A stretch of DNA of 64,000 nt, from the NCBI GenBank assembly GCA_947166625.1, contig CAMVEX010000007.1, forward strand, positions 1 through 64,000. The letters are read 5' to 3'. Positions 16,592-64,000 of the stretch are shown here, in pieces (position 1 is the stretch's first letter; each line of letters starts with the position of its first letter). A program made the translations under genes and the position numbers. The notes under the pieces are model-generated. The model searched no databases. It saw only the letters and a list, made by a program, of their open reading frames with translations, and was not told the origin of the DNA. Source of the stretch: an uncultured Clostridia bacterium. GTDB lineage: Bacteria; Bacillota; Clostridia; Oscillospirales; Acutalibacteraceae.

Positions 16592-16808
16592 TGCCGTCTG
16601 CCTTGTTCGATAACTATGACTCTGATGTAACCCAACGAAAAAATATTGGGAGCCCGACTCCGTCGCCGGACTGCAGACCTCCCGCCCCGGGGATTCTCTT
16701 TTGAGCGCTCGCCGGCAAGCGGATGAAGGGAGCGAGAAATCGACGGGAGGCACCCACCTGCCAAAGAGCAGGTTACAAGCGGTCATTCCCGGCAGGGCGG
16801 ACTGTATT
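16592..16808 (+). ncRNA. ssrS: 6S RNA (SsrS-like)
   Basis: A global regulator RNA that binds the housekeeping RNA polymerase. The region folds like 6S RNA. The closing stem pairs GCCGTCTGCC (16593-16602) with GGCAGGGCGG (16791-16800). The conserved GTTCG follows at 16605-16609. A local hairpin CCCAA/TTGGG (16631-16650) sits on the 5' side of the central region. A distal stem CCTCCCG/CGGGAGG (16678-16684 with 16743-16749) holds an apical arm. On the 3' side a hairpin ACCTGC/GCAGGT (16756-16773) is followed at once by GGTTACA, the same hairpin-then-GGTTACA order as in E. coli 6S RNA. Size, about 215 nt, also fits. Ends are approximate. Confidence 0.75.
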
Positions 16809-19659: not shown

Positions 19660-19938
19660 CCCGTATTGTCACATAAAAACCGAAACGCCTCCGCAGATAC
19701 ACTGCGGAGGCGTAATTACGCGGTCCCACTCCGATTTATTACTCCGGCAGACGCTGAAACAGCTCTGCCCGGGCTTTAACGCAGCCTTACGCGCGGGAAT
19801 ACTTAAAATATTTTGTTCCTCCCGCGAGCCGCCGGGCGCACTTCACGATCCTGCGCATAAAGGGCTTTTCAGCTTCCGCCCTCTCTCTGATATGCTCCGG
19901 AGCGCTACTCTTCCCGACCGTTGCTTTCTTATATTGAG
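19660..19938 (-). promoter_or_regulatory. T-box leader, cysteine-specific, for cysE-cysS
   Basis: The leader RNA senses uncharged tRNA and controls transcription. On the minus strand the order is: stem I with the AGAGAG...GCTGAAAAGC block near 19887-19865, a specifier loop GTGAAG followed by TGC (Cys codon, 19838-19840), then the T-box GAGTGGGACCGCG (about 19720-19732), and finally a perfect terminator hairpin GCCTCCGCAG/CTGCGGAGGC (about 19687-19711) followed by a T-rich run. The TGC specifier agrees with the genes downstream. The T-box reads UGGG where UGGA would be the exact match to a tRNA-Cys acceptor end; a G-U pair would be needed. Confidence 0.92.
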
Positions 19939-56052: not shown

Positions 56053-56093
56053 TAAAAGGACGGTTACTCAAACGGTAACCGTCCTGTTTTTTT
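56053..56093. terminator. Bidirectional intrinsic terminator between prs and the pilus operon
   Basis: Perfect 11-bp stem AGGACGGTTAC/GTAACCGTCCT (56057-56067 with 56075-56085), followed by GTTTTTTT on the plus strand; AAAA flanks the other side. Confidence 0.85.
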
Positions 56094-56106: not shown

Positions 56107-56715
56107 TCAGGCGTCATTCTGAACTCTTATGAGCCTCAGAGTCTGCCTCTGCCTGCCGCTGTAAGTGCAGGTGAAAAGGGTCATATCCCAGCCGTCATCC
56201 TGCTTCATTCCCTCGCTGTCATATCCGTCAATTCTCGATGTCGAGATAACTTCAAAATAATAATTAAGGCCCATTACATCGGTGAAGATGACCTTGTCGC
56301 CGACCGATGCATATTTCAGATTCCCGAAATGGCTCTGATAATTATGGGCGCAGATTATCAGCGAGCCGTCGGTCAGATCACCGCTGTATCTGCAAGGCGA
56401 GGTTTTGAGCTTCTCAAGGCTCCATTCCGACTGGACGGGAAGCGAGATACCGAGCGACGGGATCGAAATAACTCCGATATATTTTTCGCCGTCTATCTCA
56501 GCGGTGCGCTCGCCGTTTTCTTCAACCTCAACAAGGGAATCATTATTTGAATCGGCGACCGCTTTGATTATCATATCCGCTTTTTCGCCTGCGATCCTGT
56601 CGTTTCTCGCATTGTAAGCAAAAAGACCTCCGGCCGCCGCAATAAGCAGCAGACCGAAAGTCATAAGTATTACGCCGATCCCGGCTTTAGTTCTCTTTTT
56701 TCCTGCTTTCTCCAT
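56107..56715 (-). CDS. Second sortase of the pilus operon
   Basis: Membrane transpeptidase of 202 residues, probably anchoring finished pili or substrates to the wall. One N-terminal membrane helix (12-33); sortase core from about residue 78 with catalytic His124 in ICAHNYQSHFGNL, Cys183 in LFTCTYSG and an Arg in RQRQTLRLI. It lacks the class C lid and C-terminal membrane helix, so it is not the polymerising type; class B, D or E is not resolved. ATG at 56715 is preferred over TTG at 56724. It overlaps the upstream minor pilin gene by 29 bp, so translation is likely coupled. Last gene of the operon. Confidence 0.88.
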   Translation of the reverse strand: MEKAGKKRTKAGIGVILMTFGLLLIAAAGGLFAYNARNDRIAGEKADMIIKAVADSNNDSLVEVEENGERTAEIDGEKYIGVISIPSLGISLPVQSEWSLEKLKTSPCRYSGDLTDGSLIICAHNYQSHFGNLKYASVGDKVIFTDVMGLNYYFEVISTSRIDGYDSEGMKQDDGWDMTLFTCTYSGRQRQTLRLIRVQNDA

Positions 56716-57493
56716 AAACAACAAATCCTGTTATAAACATCAGCATTCCGGCAACGGCAAGAATGGGGATCGGATACTGAAGCATACCCGTCTGCGGGAG
56801 TTTCTCTCCCCTTGTCGTTTCTTCGGGCGCGGAGGTATTATCCGGATTTACCTGCGAATCCGCTCTTGTTACGGGGTTATGAGGCCTTGTCGGCACCGAA
56901 ACACCGGGGACCGGTCCGGGAACCGGAGCGGGGACTACGGGAACGGTCACTATCGTAACCGTCTCACCCGAAGGGGTCGTGGGCTTGGTTTCATCCGGCT
57001 TGGTGGGCACGGTTTCGGGCGGGATGTCGATCTTGGGCTCTGCGGTCACATCAAACGCGATACCGTCATCACCGGCCATCGGAATAAACACGATAAAGGG
57101 ATTGAAAAGCTTATCGGGTGAATATACAAGATAAGCTCCCAAAGCGCAGTTTTCAAATTTTGCGACGCCCTGCGAATCGGATTTGACTTCGGCTCCTGCC
57201 GATGAATTGGCGAGGACAATGTCATAGAGCTTGATCTCGGCGCCGGACTGCTTGAGATCGACGCCCGATGAAGCGAATTCACCCGAAAGAGTAAACTCGG
57301 GCTCCTTTCCGGGCGTATAGCTTGCCTCGGCAACCTTTACCGCCTTAACCGTCTTATTCGCGAGGGGATTTTTATCGGCTTTATTTATTAAATTCAGAGT
57401 GATACTGCCCGCAGAAGGAGCGGCAAACGCACAGGGACTGAACGATATCACGGTCAGGAGAACTGCCGCGATGACCGCTGTTATTCTTTTCAA
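56687..57493 (-). CDS. Minor pilin / LPQTG-anchored pilus subunit
   Basis: A 268-residue surface protein. A signal peptide (1-24) leads to a Cna-B-like beta domain (about 28-155: SITLNLINKADKNPLANKTV, then GAYLVYSPDKLFNP), then a Pro/Thr-rich stalk (about 158-225), and the cell-wall sorting signal LPQTG at 232-236 with a hydrophobic stretch and RKKEN tail. Size and position suggest the basal (anchor) subunit of a SpaA-type pilus. It overlaps both neighbours (four bases with the sortase C gene, 29 with the second sortase gene). Confidence 0.88.
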   Translation of the reverse strand: MKRITAVIAAVLLTVISFSPCAFAAPSAGSITLNLINKADKNPLANKTVKAVKVAEASYTPGKEPEFTLSGEFASSGVDLKQSGAEIKLYDIVLANSSAGAEVKSDSQGVAKFENCALGAYLVYSPDKLFNPFIVFIPMAGDDGIAFDVTAEPKIDIPPETVPTKPDETKPTTPSGETVTIVTVPVVPAPVPGPVPGVSVPTRPHNPVTRADSQVNPDNTSAPEETTRGEKLPQTGMLQYPIPILAVAGMLMFITGFVVYGESRKKEN

Positions 57494-58329
57494 GAGTTTT
57501 CCCTCCGTTTTTCTTTAAGTTTAAGCAGAAGCAGAATAATGAAGAATAAGAGCATTATTCCGCCTGCTATTATCAAAGCCATCGCCGTGGGTGAAACCAG
57601 ACGGACGGGCTGCGCGGGTTGACGGGTAACGTTTATCGTGCTGTCATACGGGACCCTCGTGCCTCTGACGAGGAGACGGTGGGTATTGATGCCGTAAGGG
57701 GTACAGGTAACGAGCGTTACATGATCCTGACCTTTAATGATCTGAAGATCTTTTGTTTCGGTCGGCAGCACGGTCTTGATCTGATCTATTTTATACGCCA
57801 GAATATCATCCAGAACGTAGATATAAAAGACGTCGCCGACAACAAGCTTATCGAGATCCGTAAAAAGCTTTGCAGAGGGCAGGCCTCTGTGACCCGTAAG
57901 GACGGCGTGGGTGTTTATACCGCCGACGGGAAGCGAAGTGGTCGGCATGTGGCCGACTCCCTTCTGGAGCACGGATTCCTTTGTGGTATGATAAATCGGC
58001 ATTTTCAGTTTGATGGCGTCGATTTTAAGATAGCCCATCATTCCGTTATCCGACGGATTCATCACATTATGATATTCGGCATTGCCCTCGAGGTCGCGTT
58101 CATCGCGGGGAAATTCATTGGTCGTAATTGTCCTGTTATACAAACGCGCATCCTCAAGAATATTATGAAAATCATCCTTTGACATACTCGCGATCTGTTT
58201 ATCATAGGTATCTATGGCAACAGACTGGTGGGCATTATTGACAATATTACTCACGGTCGGGTACATCATCAGACCGAGCCCGACAAGGAAAACCGCTATC
58301 AAAATAATCGTAGATAATCGTTTTTTCAT
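57490..58329 (-). CDS. Class C (pilus-polymerising) sortase
   Basis: Transpeptidase of 279 residues that links pilin monomers. N-terminal membrane helix (5-25), catalytic His147 in LTGHRGLPSAKLF, Cys209 in TLVTCTPYGINTHRLLVRG and Arg218, then a C-terminal membrane helix (about 248-270), all typical of class C. The TLVTCTPYG form is diagnostic. It lies after a strong GC-rich hairpin that separates it from the backbone pilin gene. Confidence 0.95.
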   Translation of the reverse strand: MKKRLSTIILIAVFLVGLGLMMYPTVSNIVNNAHQSVAIDTYDKQIASMSKDDFHNILEDARLYNRTITTNEFPRDERDLEGNAEYHNVMNPSDNGMMGYLKIDAIKLKMPIYHTTKESVLQKGVGHMPTTSLPVGGINTHAVLTGHRGLPSAKLFTDLDKLVVGDVFYIYVLDDILAYKIDQIKTVLPTETKDLQIIKGQDHVTLVTCTPYGINTHRLLVRGTRVPYDSTINVTRQPAQPVRLVSPTAMALIIAGGIMLLFFIILLLLKLKEKRRENS

Positions 58330-58428: not shown

Positions 58429-59931
58429 TTATTTTACGGTTGACTTTCTCTTTTTGGAAAGGAGAATGGCAACTGCGGCGATCATGAGAACGGCACCGCC
58501 GATGGTGAAGATATAGGTACCGATTCCGCCGGTTGAGGGAAGAAGGCCGCCCGCTTTGTTGACGATGGTCTTTTCGTTGCCGGTAACTGCGGTAACTTCG
58601 CCGTCTGCATTATAAGTAGCTACTATCTCTATCTCAACGGGATCTTTGAGAAGGTTGTAGTTTGCGGGAGCTTCGATTTCGGTAAGGGTATATTTGCCTG
58701 CCGCAAGTCCGTCAACATAGATCTTGCCGTTTGCGTCTGAAACTACGGTTGCATTAGCATCGGTAGCCGCAAGGGTATCGGATACTTTGTATCTGCCGTC
58801 TGCCTGAGTGAGAGGAATGTAATTGCCGGCTTCATCCTGAAGGGTGAATTTTGCGCCGGGGAGCTTCTCATTCTTGGAGTTTACCTTGGTGATATCAAGA
58901 GAGAAGAGATAAACGTTAACGGTTGAGGAAGGAGTGGTTTCCTTTATTGTTTCATCGTTGTAGTTGTTTGAATACTCAAGAGTAGCTTCGTTGGAGTTGC
59001 CGTCGGTTGAGGGATAAACCTTTGCGTTTGCGTTAACTCTTGCGGAGTAAGTAACTTTAACGGGCGTATCTTTAGCATAGTTGCTGAGGATATCGAAGGG
59101 AACGGAAACCGTGGTAACCTGACCGTCATAAGTGATGTCACAATCGGAAGTAACATCGTCGCTGCCGATGGTAACTTTAACGTTCTGGTCGGGAGTAAGA
59201 CCTACGGTCATGGTATCGGTGAACTTATAAACATAGTTGGTGTAATTGGTGAGGTCGGGAACGATAGAATCGATCTGGAAGCCTACATGCTGGTTGATCT
59301 TAGCGTCAACGCCGTCGGAACCTGTAGCGGAAGCAGCGTTTGTAGCTGTGTCGGAAACACCGGTGATCTTTTTGTCAACGGTGGGAACGGAAGCTTTGAG
59401 AACGATGGTTGCATCGGGAGCGGCTGTGGTGAGAGCGATATTTGCGATAGCCTTCTCTGCGTTGTCGGCTGCGCTTGCGTTACCCTCATCATATACGAGA
59501 TAGTAACCGTTAGCAAGGCCGGTGATTACAGCGCTGTTTGCATTGGTTGCGGTAACTGAGCCTGCGGCGCTGCCTTTGGAGCCGTAGATGTCATTTGCAA
59601 ATGCCTGGAGAGCGGCGTCGCCGGAGATAGCGGAAACATAGGAATATGCTCTCGCATCGAGATCTTCACCGAGGGTAGCGGGAAGATTGAGGCCTTCAAA
59701 ATAAGAGGTGAAGGGCTCGGCGATCGTGTAATCATAGGTGGTCTTTTCGGCATCATAAGTTACATCAAAAATCTTATATGCCTTGTAGGTGTGGCCGTTC
59801 ATGGAAACTGCTTCGTTGCTGTTTGTGATGGTGATGGTGCCGTTATCCTCTGCGAATGAGGGAAGCGCCATTGAGAAAAGGACGAACAGTGCAAGGACTG
59901 CCGCGGTGATAACTTTTGCTGTGTTTTTCAT
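58429..59931 (-). CDS. Major (backbone) pilin, LPSTG-anchored
   Basis: A 500-residue shaft subunit. The signal peptide (1-27) is followed by an N-terminal domain, a central Cna-B/SpaA-like region and a last Cna-B domain (about 350-455: LDITKVNSKNEKLPGAKFTL) with the E-box-like YTLTEIEAPANY near residue 424. NANAKVYPS near residue 310 may be the pilin motif with the linking lysine. The sorting signal is LPSTG at 464-468, then a membrane stretch and a KKRKSTVK tail. The domain set fits sortase C polymers with internal isopeptide bonds. It starts 51 bp after the tip gene, with AGAAAGGTG as ribosome binding site. Confidence 0.93.
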   Translation of the reverse strand: MKNTAKVITAAVLALFVLFSMALPSFAEDNGTITITNSNEAVSMNGHTYKAYKIFDVTYDAEKTTYDYTIAEPFTSYFEGLNLPATLGEDLDARAYSYVSAISGDAALQAFANDIYGSKGSAAGSVTATNANSAVITGLANGYYLVYDEGNASAADNAEKAIANIALTTAAPDATIVLKASVPTVDKKITGVSDTATNAASATGSDGVDAKINQHVGFQIDSIVPDLTNYTNYVYKFTDTMTVGLTPDQNVKVTIGSDDVTSDCDITYDGQVTTVSVPFDILSNYAKDTPVKVTYSARVNANAKVYPSTDGNSNEATLEYSNNYNDETIKETTPSSTVNVYLFSLDITKVNSKNEKLPGAKFTLQDEAGNYIPLTQADGRYKVSDTLAATDANATVVSDANGKIYVDGLAAGKYTLTEIEAPANYNLLKDPVEIEIVATYNADGEVTAVTGNEKTIVNKAGGLLPSTGGIGTYIFTIGGAVLMIAAVAILLSKKRKSTVK

Positions 59932-59982: not shown

Positions 59983-62900
59983 TTAAAGCGTGCGTTTTCG
60001 CTTTTTGCGGTAACGCGGTACCAACTCGCTGAATATCAGCGCCGGCAAGGCTATCGCGACGAATGAAACGCCGATCAACGGGATATTCGTTTCGCCCTTG
60101 CCGCCCGTCTCGGGCAGAGGACCTATAGCCGAATTTGATTTATTCGTGACCGTAATCACGCCGCCGGTTACGCCCTCCGTATTATTTTCGCTGTATGAAG
60201 CGGTGAAACCGGGGACATCGGTCGTTTCCTCGATAAAATATTTGTAATTATAAATTATCTCGGGATTGACCGAATCCGGCTTTGATAAAATCAAGTCGCC
60301 GATGGTCTTTTGCCATTCATTATAGTAGCTCAGCGAGAATGATTCATACAGTTCATCTTCGCCCTGAGATACGGAATAATCGACAGCAGCAGGCTCAGTC
60401 TTTGACAGATCGAGTATCATATAAGGATATATCACATTACCGTTTCTGGTGTAGGGGAAATCTCTGGTGTTTATCGCCACGCTGCTGATATAGTTAAGGG
60501 TCAAATCATCCGTGACGGTAAATTGCTGCTCAACGGTTTCTCTGCACCACCTGTTGTTGTGGTTTACAGAGGCTCCGTAAACGAACGGATCATCCGTGTA
60601 GGCGTTGGCGTTTCTGACCTGACTATAATCCGAAGTGACCGTTACGGGATCGCCGCCGTTTTGACTCAGACTGATGGTCGCGGTACTGTAATTGCTGCGG
60701 ATGTAAATTCTCGGTGTAAAGGTGATCACTGTTCCGTCCGGAACTATGAACTGCCTCTGATACTCGGTAAAGGATTTATTCGGATCGGAAACATAGATCG
60801 TAACCGTATGCTTCAGCGGTGTTAAAACTTCAACATGCCGCTTGAGTTTTATGTTAACGGCAGGCATGGATGAAGTGTCTGCGATCTCCGCTCCGATTTT
60901 ATTGGTCCACTGCTTTTTGACGGATAATACACCTTCATCGGGTAATTCTCTGTTTGTGAGAGTCAGAGTGCCGTCATACGCGCGAAGCGGAGAAGAAATA
61001 TCCGCTACATAATATCCATCCGGACAGTTTTCTTTAATGTAGTAGGTGTAGCGCTTATCATTCGGATCTCTGATCGGAAGGGTGTAGGTTTGCGAATAAT
61101 TATTTGAATTGCTCAGACGAACTTCCTGCACGACTTCTTCATGATGACTGTCATCCGCCATACGGCAAAGATCGACTGTAATCACGGGCAAGCCCGAAGT
61201 ATCAGTAATGAGCGTTCCTTCTTTATCCTCCCACTTCTTTTCAACGGTGATTTCGATATTCTCTTTCCTTGAAAGGAAGGTCGCCTTACCGTTGTTGCCG
61301 AGCAGGCCGTTGACCGTTGCGCTCGAATTCGCAGTGCCCTCATTCATAGCGGTGTAGGCGTATGAATGGGAATCGGGTGCGGTTGAAGTGGTGTTATCGG
61401 TCTTTGCCGTGTAGCCGTCGAGGCCGGGCTTTATAGTACTGCTGACAAAATTATGAAGCTCATCCTTGACAACATTGAAATAATAATCGTTATCGCCGGG
61501 GATCTCGTAAGTTACCGTAGTGAGCGGGACCATATTCTGATCGAAGGCGTTGGTGTAGGCAGGGCCTTCTTCTATATCGTTGGTGAAATCCACTCCGTAA
61601 GTCAACACGGTGGGGTCTGCGGCTATATATTCGCCGTTTGTCACATCTTCTCTGTTTGCGAAGGTGAACATTGCGACTTCTTTTGCGGGAAGCCTCCATA
61701 CAAGAGTTTGCTGACCGCTGTCATCCTCGGTCAATGTTACGGTGGTATCATATCCGGTAAAAGTATAGGTGCCGTCGCCGTCTTCATCAACGCCCGTAAC
61801 AGGAGGTTTGCCGTTTTGCTTCAGGGTTATATCGGTGACAAACATTCCTTCGCCGATAACATCGGTGAACTCCACATCGCTGCTCTGTTCGCCGGAGCCT
61901 TCGTGATTGACTATGGGAATCGTATATTCCATCGAGCCCATCTTGATGATATTTGCGAGTGTCACAAAGGCATTCATAAGAACCGAATAAGTATTTGCAA
62001 AGGTTACATAACCGTCGCCTTCATTGATATAGGTATAGTTGCCGTCCGCGGAATAATCTTTTTCCGTAACTTTGGGAGCCCAGTCGGGCTGACCCATATA
62101 ATATTTGATTTTCTCCGGCGAGGTAGTGCCATATCCGTTTCTTCCTTCCACTCCGACCATATAATAAGGATTCAGAAGGCAGGCGGTATAGCTGGGGTCG
62201 TCGGGGTCAGTGGGCTCATCAACTCCGAGACCTATATTGAACCACTGAACATCGATTTCTTTACCGTCGTTGTTATATTCCTCATAAGCATCGGCAATAC
62301 GGTCGCGCCATATAGCTGCCGAAAGTATTGCACCTGTTGCAAAGAGTTCGTTTCTGTCACCGCCGCTCGAGGTCGTTATCGTATTGTTTCTGAGATCCGA
62401 AAGAGTTTCCGAATTCCAGTTTTTACTCGCCAGTGTCGGCTCGCCGTCGGTAAGCATGATAACATAGGGCCTGCGTTCGATACTGTTATCCGTCTCGGCG
62501 TTTATGTCATCAACAAAACTTTTAGCTCCCGCCACTATACCGTATTGGGTGCAGGTTCCGCTTTGGGCCTGCTCGCTGAACGAAAACGTTTCGCCGTCTT
62601 TGAGCAGTGTACTGCTCGATGCCACACTTCTGCTGCCGGAGAGGCGGATATATTTATCTTTCGTATCCTCGGAAGTGCTGCTGCTGGTATAGTGAGCAAG
62701 CGGCATAAACTCTTTTGTGTAATTGACACAGCTCGTACCGCTGCCGCTGAAGCGGACCAGCTTTATTCTATTATTGGGATTTGTTTGCGTGATAATATCA
62801 ATCGCTTCGTTGGCGGCATCAACCATCGCCGAAAGTCTTGTAACTCTGGTTCCGTCATCTTTCTCAACATCGCTGTTGTTATACATTGAAGTCGTGAAGT

Positions 62901-63219
62901 CGAGAATGAAGAGAACATCTGCGGCGATCGAGGTCGTCTCCGACGAGCCGTAAGAAGAGATATACTCCTGAGCAAGCACCTTGAGGTTTACATCAAAGTG
63001 ATCGTCGTTGACAGATACGCTCTTATCGGTCCAGATCCTGCCGTTATTTGAAATCGTACCGAATCCGTCGGGCACCGTGCCGGTATCCGGATCGGATGAC
63101 AGGGTATAGGTATATTCGCCCTTTTCCGCCGTGCCGGTATCGGCAGAGGACGAAATAAAGGGCAACGCCCCAGACACTATCAACGCTATAAGCAGAATTG
63201 AAATGATCCTTTTCCTCAC
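59983..63219 (-). CDS. VWA-domain pilus tip adhesin, LPETG-anchored
   Basis: A 1078-residue surface protein. The signal peptide (1-26) is followed by the pilus-tip motif GRIWTDKSVSV (60-70), then a VWA domain (about 98-330) with metal-site residues DFTTS at 107-111 and MLTDGEP near residue 265. Cna-B-like repeats near 690-765 (EITVEKKWEDKEGTLITDTS) and near 775-1030 (LSVKKQWTNKIGAEIADTSS) form the stalk, and LPETG at 1035-1039 ends it with a hydrophobic stretch and basic tail. The MIDAS has Thr where Ser is usual. GTG at 63219 has AAGGAG correctly spaced. First gene of the pilus operon, under the c-di-GMP riboswitch. Confidence 0.94.
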   Translation of the reverse strand: MRKRIISILLIALIVSGALPFISSSADTGTAEKGEYTYTLSSDPDTGTVPDGFGTISNNGRIWTDKSVSVNDDHFDVNLKVLAQEYISSYGSSETTSIAADVLFILDFTTSMYNNSDVEKDDGTRVTRLSAMVDAANEAIDIITQTNPNNRIKLVRFSGSGTSCVNYTKEFMPLAHYTSSSTSEDTKDKYIRLSGSRSVASSSTLLKDGETFSFSEQAQSGTCTQYGIVAGAKSFVDDINAETDNSIERRPYVIMLTDGEPTLASKNWNSETLSDLRNNTITTSSGGDRNELFATGAILSAAIWRDRIADAYEEYNNDGKEIDVQWFNIGLGVDEPTDPDDPSYTACLLNPYYMVGVEGRNGYGTTSPEKIKYYMGQPDWAPKVTEKDYSADGNYTYINEGDGYVTFANTYSVLMNAFVTLANIIKMGSMEYTIPIVNHEGSGEQSSDVEFTDVIGEGMFVTDITLKQNGKPPVTGVDEDGDGTYTFTGYDTTVTLTEDDSGQQTLVWRLPAKEVAMFTFANREDVTNGEYIAADPTVLTYGVDFTNDIEEGPAYTNAFDQNMVPLTTVTYEIPGDNDYYFNVVKDELHNFVSSTIKPGLDGYTAKTDNTTSTAPDSHSYAYTAMNEGTANSSATVNGLLGNNGKATFLSRKENIEITVEKKWEDKEGTLITDTSGLPVITVDLCRMADDSHHEEVVQEVRLSNSNNYSQTYTLPIRDPNDKRYTYYIKENCPDGYYVADISSPLRAYDGTLTLTNRELPDEGVLSVKKQWTNKIGAEIADTSSMPAVNIKLKRHVEVLTPLKHTVTIYVSDPNKSFTEYQRQFIVPDGTVITFTPRIYIRSNYSTATISLSQNGGDPVTVTSDYSQVRNANAYTDDPFVYGASVNHNNRWCRETVEQQFTVTDDLTLNYISSVAINTRDFPYTRNGNVIYPYMILDLSKTEPAAVDYSVSQGEDELYESFSLSYYNEWQKTIGDLILSKPDSVNPEIIYNYKYFIEETTDVPGFTASYSENNTEGVTGGVITVTNKSNSAIGPLPETGGKGETNIPLIGVSFVAIALPALIFSELVPRYRKKRKRTL

Positions 63220-63270: not shown

Positions 63271-63317
63271 GAAAAAACGGCCACAGGAAAATCAAAGAAT
63301 GATTTTAACTGCAGCCG
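63271..63317 (-). terminator. Riboswitch-linked intrinsic terminator
   Basis: On the minus strand CGGCTGCAG pairs with CTGTGGCCG (63309-63317 with 63278-63286), extended inside by AAAATCA/TTGATTTT and followed by TTTTTT (63272-63277). Its 5' arm is also the 3' strand of the c-di-GMP aptamer, so the two folds exclude each other. This predicts an ON switch. Confidence 0.8.
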
Positions 63318-63390
63318 GTCAATCATACATTATATAAATGCTTAGACACCTTGGCTTTGCGTCACCGGATTTCTCCGGCTTTGCCGAATA
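63308..63390 (-). promoter_or_regulatory. Cyclic di-GMP-I (GEMM-I) riboswitch
   Basis: Senses c-di-GMP in the leader of the pilus operon. Read on the minus strand: GGCAAAGCC, a hairpin CCGGA-GAAA-TCCGG with a GNRA tetraloop, GACGCAAAGCC, then GGTGTCTAAG, a small stem CATT/AATG, and TATGATTGACCGGCTGC. This is the full GEMM-I order. AGCC and GGT pair with ACC and GGCT to form the second helix. The conserved GACGCAAAGCC and CTAAG blocks are intact. A perfect TATAAT (63394-63399) sits just upstream, and a terminator overlaps the 3' strand. Confidence 0.95.
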
Positions 63391-63393
63391 TCA

Positions 63394-63399
63394 AATTAT
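63394..63399 (-). promoter_or_regulatory. -10 box for the riboswitch/pilus transcript
   Basis: TATAAT on the minus strand, between the GGDEF gene stop (63407) and the aptamer. Predicted start is near 63387. No good -35 box is seen at 17 bp (GAGACG), so the promoter may need an activator, or read-through from the GGDEF gene may contribute. Confidence 0.5.
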
Positions 63400-63406
63400 A
63401 AGAGAT

Positions 63407-64000
63407 CTATCCGCGCCCGTCTCGCTTATCGGCATACATCATCACATCCGCTTTGCGGAAAAGCTCATCATAATCCCCTTCGGAAGAAACGGAGCCTTTG
63501 ACCGAGCCGAAGCTGCAGGATATTTTTTCATCGATCCCTTCAACGCTCAGAATATCGAGCGTGGATTTTACGCGATCAATCTTTTTATCAAACTCATCTT
63601 TGCCTGACTCGCTGACGATAACGAACTCATCGCCTCCGTAGCGGTAAACGGCGTTTTCGCCGAAATTATCAACAAGCACATCGGCTACCGCTTTGATGAC
63701 GCTGTCACCGGCATCGTGACCGTATCTGTCGTTAATGCGCTTAAAGCGGTCAATATCGCAAACGCACAGGATGATCTCTCTGCCTTCATAAGACGAAGCA
63801 TCATCAACGAGAGCGTAGCGGTTTTTGACATCCGTGATTATATCGGTCCTCGCGGCTCTGTGCAGCTCTGCGTTGAGGGATTTGACCTCCAGCTTGCTCT
63901 TGATAAGGCTGAAGGAAACCCTGTATCTCGCCAGAGAGCCGTAAATGCAAAAGAGCATGAGCCCGATATAATTGAAAACATCGACCCCATGAGCGCCGTT
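63407..64000 (-). CDS. GGDEF diguanylate cyclase (partial, N-terminus outside window)
   Basis: Makes c-di-GMP from GTP. The frame is open to the window edge; the visible part is a hydrophobic segment (membrane helix end, NYIGLMLFCIYG), a short coiled linker, and a GGDEF domain of about 155 residues. The active-site loop is YRYGGDEFVIV, and DIDRFKRINDRYGHDAGD carries the metal and substrate residues. No inhibitory RxxD site precedes the loop (FGEN stands there), so product inhibition may be absent. It lies directly upstream of the c-di-GMP riboswitch and pilus genes on the same strand. Confidence 0.93.
   Translation of the reverse strand, partial: NGAHGVDVFNYIGLMLFCIYGSLARYRVSFSLIKSKLEVKSLNAELHRAARTDIITDVKNRYALVDDASSYEGREIILCVCDIDRFKRINDRYGHDAGDSVIKAVADVLVDNFGENAVYRYGGDEFVIVSESGKDEFDKKIDRVKSTLDILSVEGIDEKISCSFGSVKGSVSSEGDYDELFRKADVMMYADKRDGRG

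Follow-up and report, generated by a model that had tools for sequence, protein, structure and literature searches.

The locus described here lies at the end of the window, i.e., the whole 64,000-nt stretch of contig CAMVEX010000007.1 that was analyzed, in the draft genome of an uncultured Clostridia bacterium (G000) whose genus consists of uncultured bacteria, several of them from ruminants. A diguanylate cyclase gene, a c-di-GMP-I (GEMM-I) riboswitch, and a sortase pilus operon follow one another on one strand (Table 1). This arrangement, which an earlier note had read from the DNA letters, was confirmed by matches to RF01051, PF00990, and sortase and pilin families. The covariance-model check that the note had proposed for positions 63300-63400 of the minus strand was run within an Rfam scan of the whole window and gave a full-length match (model positions 1-87; 67.7 bits vs. 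a cut-off of 35; E = 4.1e-11), which rules out a chance aptamer. This match is one of three in the window, and the other two are a T-box leader (19703-19930, minus strand) and a 6S RNA (16592-16807, plus strand). The stop codon of the GGDEF gene is indeed close to the aptamer, but the distance to the aptamer model is 11 nt rather than the about 15 bases given previously; a further 87 nt separate the aptamer from the GTG start codon of the tip gene. The ligand-site letters (GGCAAA, GACGCAAAG, and CUGC), which we take to be those named G20, A47, and C92 in GEMM-I aptamers, are kept in 8/8 aptamers of the genus.

Table 1. Features of the cyclase-riboswitch-pilus locus, with positions in the window.
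Feature	Position	Strand	Evidence and remarks
Diguanylate cyclase, C-terminal 197 aa (GGDEF domain and last membrane segments)	63407..64000	minus	PF00990, 94.3 bits
Possible promoter	63395..63423	minus	GAGACG, 17 nt, TATAAT (-10 at 63400-63395); 9/12 consensus letters, perfect -10; weak
c-di-GMP-I (GEMM-I) aptamer	63307..63395	minus	RF01051, 67.7 bits
Intrinsic terminator hairpin	63278..63317	minus	5' arm CGGCUGCAG is the 3' closing strand of the aptamer
Tip/adhesin-like pilus protein, 1078 aa, GTG start	59983..63219	minus	Cna_B, LPETG; VWA below its cut-off
Major pilin, SpaH/EbpB family, LPSTG	58429..59931	minus	NF033902, 116.3 bits vs. 95; PF16569, PF17802, PF00746
Class C (pilus-polymerizing) sortase	57490..58329	minus	NF033745, 273.3 bits vs. 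cut-off of 160
Third LPXTG protein (LPQTG), probable accessory or basal pilin	56687..57493	minus	PF00746
Second, smaller sortase	56107..56724	minus	PF04203, 50.4 bits; below class C cut-off
Terminator-like inverted repeat, operon end	56057..56085	minus	Found on both strands; longer T run on plus

The operon behind the aptamer encodes a class C sortase and a major pilin that has both an isopeptide domain and an LPXTG motif, and its gene content predicts a function in pilus formation. In its set of a tip-like protein, major pilin, class C sortase, accessory LPXTG protein, and second sortase, it resembles the Spa/Ebp-type operons, but differs from these in having a c-di-GMP-I aptamer in the leader and a cyclase gene beside it. 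An LPXTG gene at the place of the third LPXTG protein is also present in the seven other loci of the genus. Separately, G000 has a second sortase pilus operon (L300, G000:C3:46000-64000) that begins with a signal-peptidase-like gene and is without GEMM-I or GGDEF. Here and below, genes called signal-peptidase-like, STAS-plus-kinase-like, RsbW-like, flagellar hook-like, glycosyl-hydrolase-like, and glycosyltransferase-like were named by eye, and these names are our presumption.

The cyclase gene runs past the window to an ATG at approximately 64489, a start chosen by alignment with relatives, and the full product has approximately 360 aa with about five hydrophobic segments. No named sensor domain was identified by Pfam in the membrane half of the G000 and G010 cyclases. 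The catalytic domain has the GGDEF motif and DIDRFKRIND, which includes the metal-site Asp, and is presumably active as a diguanylate cyclase; the motif of the G018 homolog is GGDEL. Residues 9 to 6 before GGDEF are FGEN, such that the RxxD inhibition site is absent as had been noted, and it is likewise absent from all seven complete cyclases of the genus, G000 included. RxxD is no defining mark of activity, and many active cyclases are without it. Just past the window (contig positions 64855-68136; L002 9856-13137), a partner-switching-like module composed of a 5TMR_LYT plus SpoIIE phosphatase gene followed by STAS-plus-kinase-like and RsbW-like genes is divergent from the cyclase; no such module was seen beside the cyclase of G060. 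The Asp in GHxxGD, at what we take to be the site of Ser in Hypr enzymes, is found in 7/7 complete cyclases, and none of these has the Ser. Replacement of Asp by Ser at the base-reading position is the signature of the Hypr (cGAMP-making) GGDEF enzymes (PMC6456294).

In the G000 genome (2.49 Mb, 97.5% complete), there is one GEMM-I match and one GGDEF match, and the two are neighbors. Given that a neighborhood of 12 kb on both sides accounts for approximately 1% of the genome, simple arithmetic puts a chance adjacency at about 1 in 100 per genome, and the single GGDEF match rules out that the cyclase is one of many that happens to lie nearby. No further GGDEF, EAL, HD-GYP (PF13487), or PilZ match and no second c-di-GMP-I match was found in this draft genome. 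Among the 45 genomes of the genus, GEMM-I is present in nine and GGDEF in nine: eight have both, one has the riboswitch only (G003), one has GGDEF only (G067), and 35 have neither (Fisher p = 3.7e-7, not corrected for relatedness; 1.6e-6 without G016). Both mismatches look like effects of contig ends. In G003, the riboswitch is 430 nt from the contig start, and a 93-aa open reading frame there, which continues past the end of the contig, matches the N-terminal part of the G018 cyclase at 47% identity and looks like a cyclase gene cut by the contig end. The GGDEF match of G067 is a fragment of 73 aa located at the end of a contig, with 65/73 positions identical to the G020 cyclase. Furthermore, the sole GGDEF match borders the sole riboswitch-pilus locus in seven genomes (G000, G004, G010, G012, G018, G020, and G060), and a sortase pilus operon follows 8/8 riboswitch loci of the genus for which the downstream sequence could be read. 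The misfit is G016, which has a riboswitch at a contig end together with six GGDEF, two EAL, and two HD_5 matches and may be a mixed bin. The other eight riboswitch genomes have no match to EAL, PilZ, or HD_5 (for HD-GYP, PF13487 only), absences that are provisional because these genomes are 78-97% complete drafts.

Based on these patterns, we propose that the locus is likely a self-sufficient c-di-GMP circuit with positive (feed-forward) logic that turns on pilus formation. The membrane cyclase would sense a cue and make c-di-GMP, which would stabilize the GEMM-I aptamer in the pilus leader and so withhold the 3' strand of the aptamer from the terminator. Read-through transcription of the tip, pilin, and sortase genes would then lead to pili, presumably the only output; when the signal is lacking, the terminator would win. 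A local circuit had been suggested earlier from the gene order, and it gains support from the sole-cyclase adjacency in 7/8 genomes, from the joint presence and absence in 45 congeners, and from the re-pairing described below. Together, the cyclase and riboswitch seem to make up all of the recognizable c-di-GMP pathway in these genomes, and they may be held together because neither would be useful without the other. Several observations count against this proposal, namely, the G016 misfit, the GGDEL motif in G018, congeneric pilus operons without the module, the two loci of the genus (G003 and G004) that a 700-nt rule does not count as cyclase-adjacent, two unremarkable shuffle controls on the terminator stem (see below), and a GEMM-I-pilus operon of Butyrivibrio with no cyclase seen nearby and mostly no terminator overlap. 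Its weakest point is signal removal, as no phosphodiesterase families were found in the eight genomes.

This weak point is also what an alternative reading draws on, in which c-di-GMP acts globally through unrecognized protein receptors and a hydrolase, and the pilus is one of several outputs. A signal without a removal enzyme is odd; moreover, the receptor search covered PilZ and the hydrolase search covered EAL and HD_5, and a search for c-di-GMP-II riboswitches gave 0/10 but was silent in the control genome too. We nevertheless consider a global role unlikely, given that the eight genomes have no EAL, HD_5, or PilZ match, that there is a single GEMM-I per genome, and that the nine congeners with riboswitch-free sortase loci have no GGDEF match.

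For the local circuit, comparison among relatives gives a more varied picture than a fixed gene order, the conservation of which the earlier note had named as a test. The tandem order of cyclase, aptamer, and pilus operon is kept in G000 and G060 only, and elsewhere the cyclase is differently placed: divergent and upstream in G010, G012, G018, and G020 (with a remnant in G003), and convergent at the far end of the operon, approximately 10.7 kb from the aptamer, in G004. By a 700-nt rule, 6/8 loci of the genus count as cyclase-adjacent (all but G003 and G004), and all eight are ON-type (see below). Two types of cyclase can be distinguished, type A in G000, G004, and G060 (46-66% identical) and type B in G010, G012, G018, and G020, with the remnant in G003. 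Their membrane halves differ, and their catalytic domains are approximately 30% identical. As a single clade of A and B was not rejected in the GGDEF-domain tree (p-AU = 0.117), the distinction concerns the membrane halves and the low identity and is not a proven separate origin. The pilus operons are also of two types. The first has a VWA-like tip (G000, G060, and G003), and the second has a coiled-coil-like open reading frame and a signal-peptidase-like gene followed by a 1600-aa tip (G004, G010, G018, and G020); the operon of G012 is a hybrid of the two. Each cyclase type is paired with both pilus types. In the sortase tree, which is the one source for gains and losses of the module, riboswitch-linked operons are found in two distant places, and at least three changes are forced by well-supported branches. 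As a side observation, the first gene of the operons in L028, L029, L033, L032, and the Butyrivibrio loci, located before the signal-peptidase-like gene, is an open reading frame of approximately 160-280 aa that has KLxRxELLE close to its start; the one from G004, which was the one tested, matched no Pfam family over the cut-off.

Among the other 37 congeners, 35 are without GGDEF and GEMM-I, and seven of these 35 have the same type of pilus operon. The first pilus type without an aptamer is found in G013, G026, G028, G029, G030, G065, and G066, and there is no GGDEF or GEMM-I match in these genomes. No GEMM-I was found in the readable leaders of G026, G030, G065, G066, and G013, and the operons of G028 and G029 (and of G035, whose sortase is more distant) are cut off by contig ends. 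Since operons of the first pilus type that are without the aptamer are also without GGDEF, the presence of the cyclase follows that of the riboswitch rather than that of the pilus, and the module is dispensable for the pilus, as these congeneric operons exist in its absence. These distributions bear on the possibility that the riboswitch controls the pili while the cyclase is assorted cargo of pilus islands, with its c-di-GMP irrelevant to the pilus. The type, side, and orientation of the cyclase do vary, and several changes of the riboswitch label are seen across the sortase tree, as would be expected of such cargo. However, the cyclase is the only GGDEF match in seven genomes, and nine other congeners with class C sortase loci have neither a GGDEF nor a GEMM-I match; with no other cyclase in the genome, the riboswitch would be left without a source of its ligand. 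We therefore regard this linkage by mere cohabitation as quite unlikely.

Within the proposed circuit, the loci may differ in how the leader is transcribed. A perfect TTGACA/TATAAT promoter ends 14-25 nt before the aptamer model in five of the eight leaders (G003, G004, G010, G012, and G020), and the match in G018 is 9/12. The two tandem loci have weaker matches (9/12 with a perfect -10 in G000 and 8/12 in G060), and the possible promoter in G000 was not among the sites from a scan of the window. With the aptamer directly behind the cyclase gene and weaker promoter matches in G000 and G060, there is room for co-transcription, and the leader may be transcribed together with the cyclase in these two genomes.

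The predicted polarity of the switch derives from the terminator. Such a hairpin is present in 8/8 leaders of the genus (best fold of -19 to -31 kcal/mol), and all eight were classed as overlapping with the aptamer. In G000, the hairpin is followed by a U-rich tract (63277-63266), and GGCU of the leader can pair with AGCC to close the aptamer or, alternatively, pair within the terminator. For the nine-pair terminator stem, 91.7% of the cells are paired across eight distinct sequences, three pairs are changed on both sides, and the covariation is 0.341 compared to at most 0.127 with the partner slid. Of five shuffle controls, three (paired cells, covariation, and cells changed on both sides) had values that were each reached by 1/500 shuffles, and two were unremarkable (pairs changed on both sides, 51/500; further pair types, 456/500). 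At column 114, G000 and G060 have G and the other six leaders have A, with both the aptamer partner and the terminator partner changed from C to U; these changes are comparative evidence for two mutually exclusive pairings, although they may stem from one or two events only.

This overlap between the 5' arm of the terminator and the 3' strand of the aptamer is like that of the Geobacter metallireducens pilM GEMM-I, a transcriptional ON switch for cGAMP. There, terminator and aptamer exclude each other, and the C that pairs with the ligand is tied up in the terminator (PMC9262584). Because the terminator reuses the 3' strand of the aptamer in a layout as in pilM, the leaders of the genus are predicted to be ON switches. 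They are unlike pilM in the predicted ligand (c-di-GMP), in the sortase pilus operon, and in having a canonical cyclase close by, with no other cyclase found in the genome. Precedents for the reverse polarity or another ligand do exist, as class I switches in Clostridioides difficile are OFF (PMC6200980; PMC11477304) and many GEMM-I RNAs of Geobacter prefer 3',3'-cGAMP (PMC6456294). We nonetheless find it very unlikely that the switch is OFF or responds to 3',3'-cGAMP: OFF logic is disfavored because the terminator takes the aptamer's own strand, as in the ON switch of pilM, and cGAMP is disfavored by the Asp in GHxxGD of 7/7 complete cyclases and by both G of GGCAAA, kept in 8/8 aptamers. Finally, a misjoin of cyclase and pilus operon in one draft assembly is hardly credible, for although the congeners with the module are drafts and several related operons are at contig ends, the same tandem is also present in another assembly (that of G060, whose cyclase shares only 46% identity), which rules it out, and the GC contents are alike (cyclase 0.476, tip 0.479) on a contig of 124.8 kb.

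Outside the genus, GEMM-I was found in 104/394 sampled genomes of the order. Loci were analyzed from 76 of these 104 genomes besides G000 (including G040, G041, G044, and G047; G039, G055, and 25 others, among them G336, G072, G088, G132, and G228, were left out), and often only some loci where a genome has several riboswitches. Among the 91 aptamer loci outside the genus (some sharing a genome), seven have a GGDEF gene within 700 nt, six of them tandem and upstream and one divergent; these adjacency counts are lower bounds because the GGDEF genes were called with a 21-seed profile. Based on terminator overlap, 7/7 cyclase-adjacent loci are ON-type compared to 12/84 others (p = 6e-6, uncorrected), a comparison that is exploratory since it was made after the ON pattern of the adjacent loci had been seen. 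These seven loci come from six families, and several of them have cyclases or operons that are related. Five of the seven (L143, L155, L200, and L206, tandem; L173, divergent), which represent five families of the order, precede a VTC/DUF4956/CotH/glycosyl-hydrolase-like operon that also has glycosyltransferase-like genes, such that the cyclase/aptamer layout seems to serve another surface product; the Pfam assignments of VTC, DUF4956, and CotH are from G262 only. The loci of G262, G299, G383, and G208 (and of G151, divergent) thus likewise have a cyclase beside an ON-type GEMM-I before a surface-product operon. They differ from the pilus locus in that the output is exopolysaccharide-like and in having more than one GGDEF match where these were counted (six in G262, five in G151, and two in G383).

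Sortase pilus operons behind GEMM-I also occur elsewhere. One is in G369, where no cyclase was seen nearby. GEMM-I was found at 10 of the best 80 class C sortase loci of named records (among at least 596 confirmed stretches), namely, three genus members, six Butyrivibrio, and one Bacillota MAG. The six Butyrivibrio operons (L246, L234, L225, L217, L228, and L223) match the second pilus type gene by gene, with the last sortase seen in 4/6, and the upstream gene is flagellar hook-like in the 4/6 that are long enough to judge. No GGDEF was found near these loci in the 1.0-1.9 kb upstream or in the downstream part examined. As the terminator does not overlap with the aptamer in 5/6, the Butyrivibrio switches may be OFF, i.e., of opposite polarity. 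Taken together, a cyclase, an ON-type GEMM-I, and a surface operon might form a recurring transmissible cassette of maker, RNA reader, and output that needs no phosphodiesterase or protein receptor, is gained and lost as a unit, and swaps its cyclase and its output, with pili here and probably exopolysaccharide in other families of the order; we consider the chances that this broader view holds to be about even.

With respect to known systems, the earlier note had cited C. difficile as a precedent. The presence of riboswitches before type IV pilus and adhesin genes in that species stands, with the correction that those of type IV pilus and sortase-substrate genes are class II ON switches, those of class I acting OFF (PMC6200980; PMC11477304). 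The C. difficile arrangement therefore differs from that of a class I ON switch placed ahead of a sortase pilus operon. What the two have in common is an RNA-mediated rise in the expression of pili or sortase-dependent adhesins with c-di-GMP, described for C. difficile (PMC6200980; PMC11477304) and predicted here. They differ in scale, with 37 DGC/PDE proteins and 16 predicted riboswitches in C. difficile (PMC6200980) compared to one cyclase and one riboswitch here, and in output, with single sortase substrates there and a whole sortase pilus operon here. In this sense, the locus of the genus is at the opposite extreme from the C. difficile network. The CdgF/CdgE/PelD system of Bacillus cereus differs in that it has a protein receptor and includes a phosphodiesterase, and the genome probably encodes eight c-di-GMP enzymes; the main text of its description does not contain the word riboswitch. 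No report of the cyclase/GEMM-I/sortase-pilus arrangement was found in the open PMC literature. The parts and the logic are known, and what appears to be new is that the pathway occupies one locus, is present as a sole copy, and turns over in modules.

Networks of c-di-GMP usually have many cyclases and receptors, and the source of local specificity is hard to tell. A pathway of one cyclase, one RNA receptor, and one output, with congeners that have the same type of pilus operon but are free of the module, would allow direct tests of local signaling and feed-forward switching. A natural one-locus system would also allow tests of how a signal is removed without a known hydrolase. These patterns suggest that riboswitch-based control by a second messenger can move between operons as a unit, and that in this genus a c-di-GMP pathway, usually made of many parts, appears to have shrunk to one portable locus.
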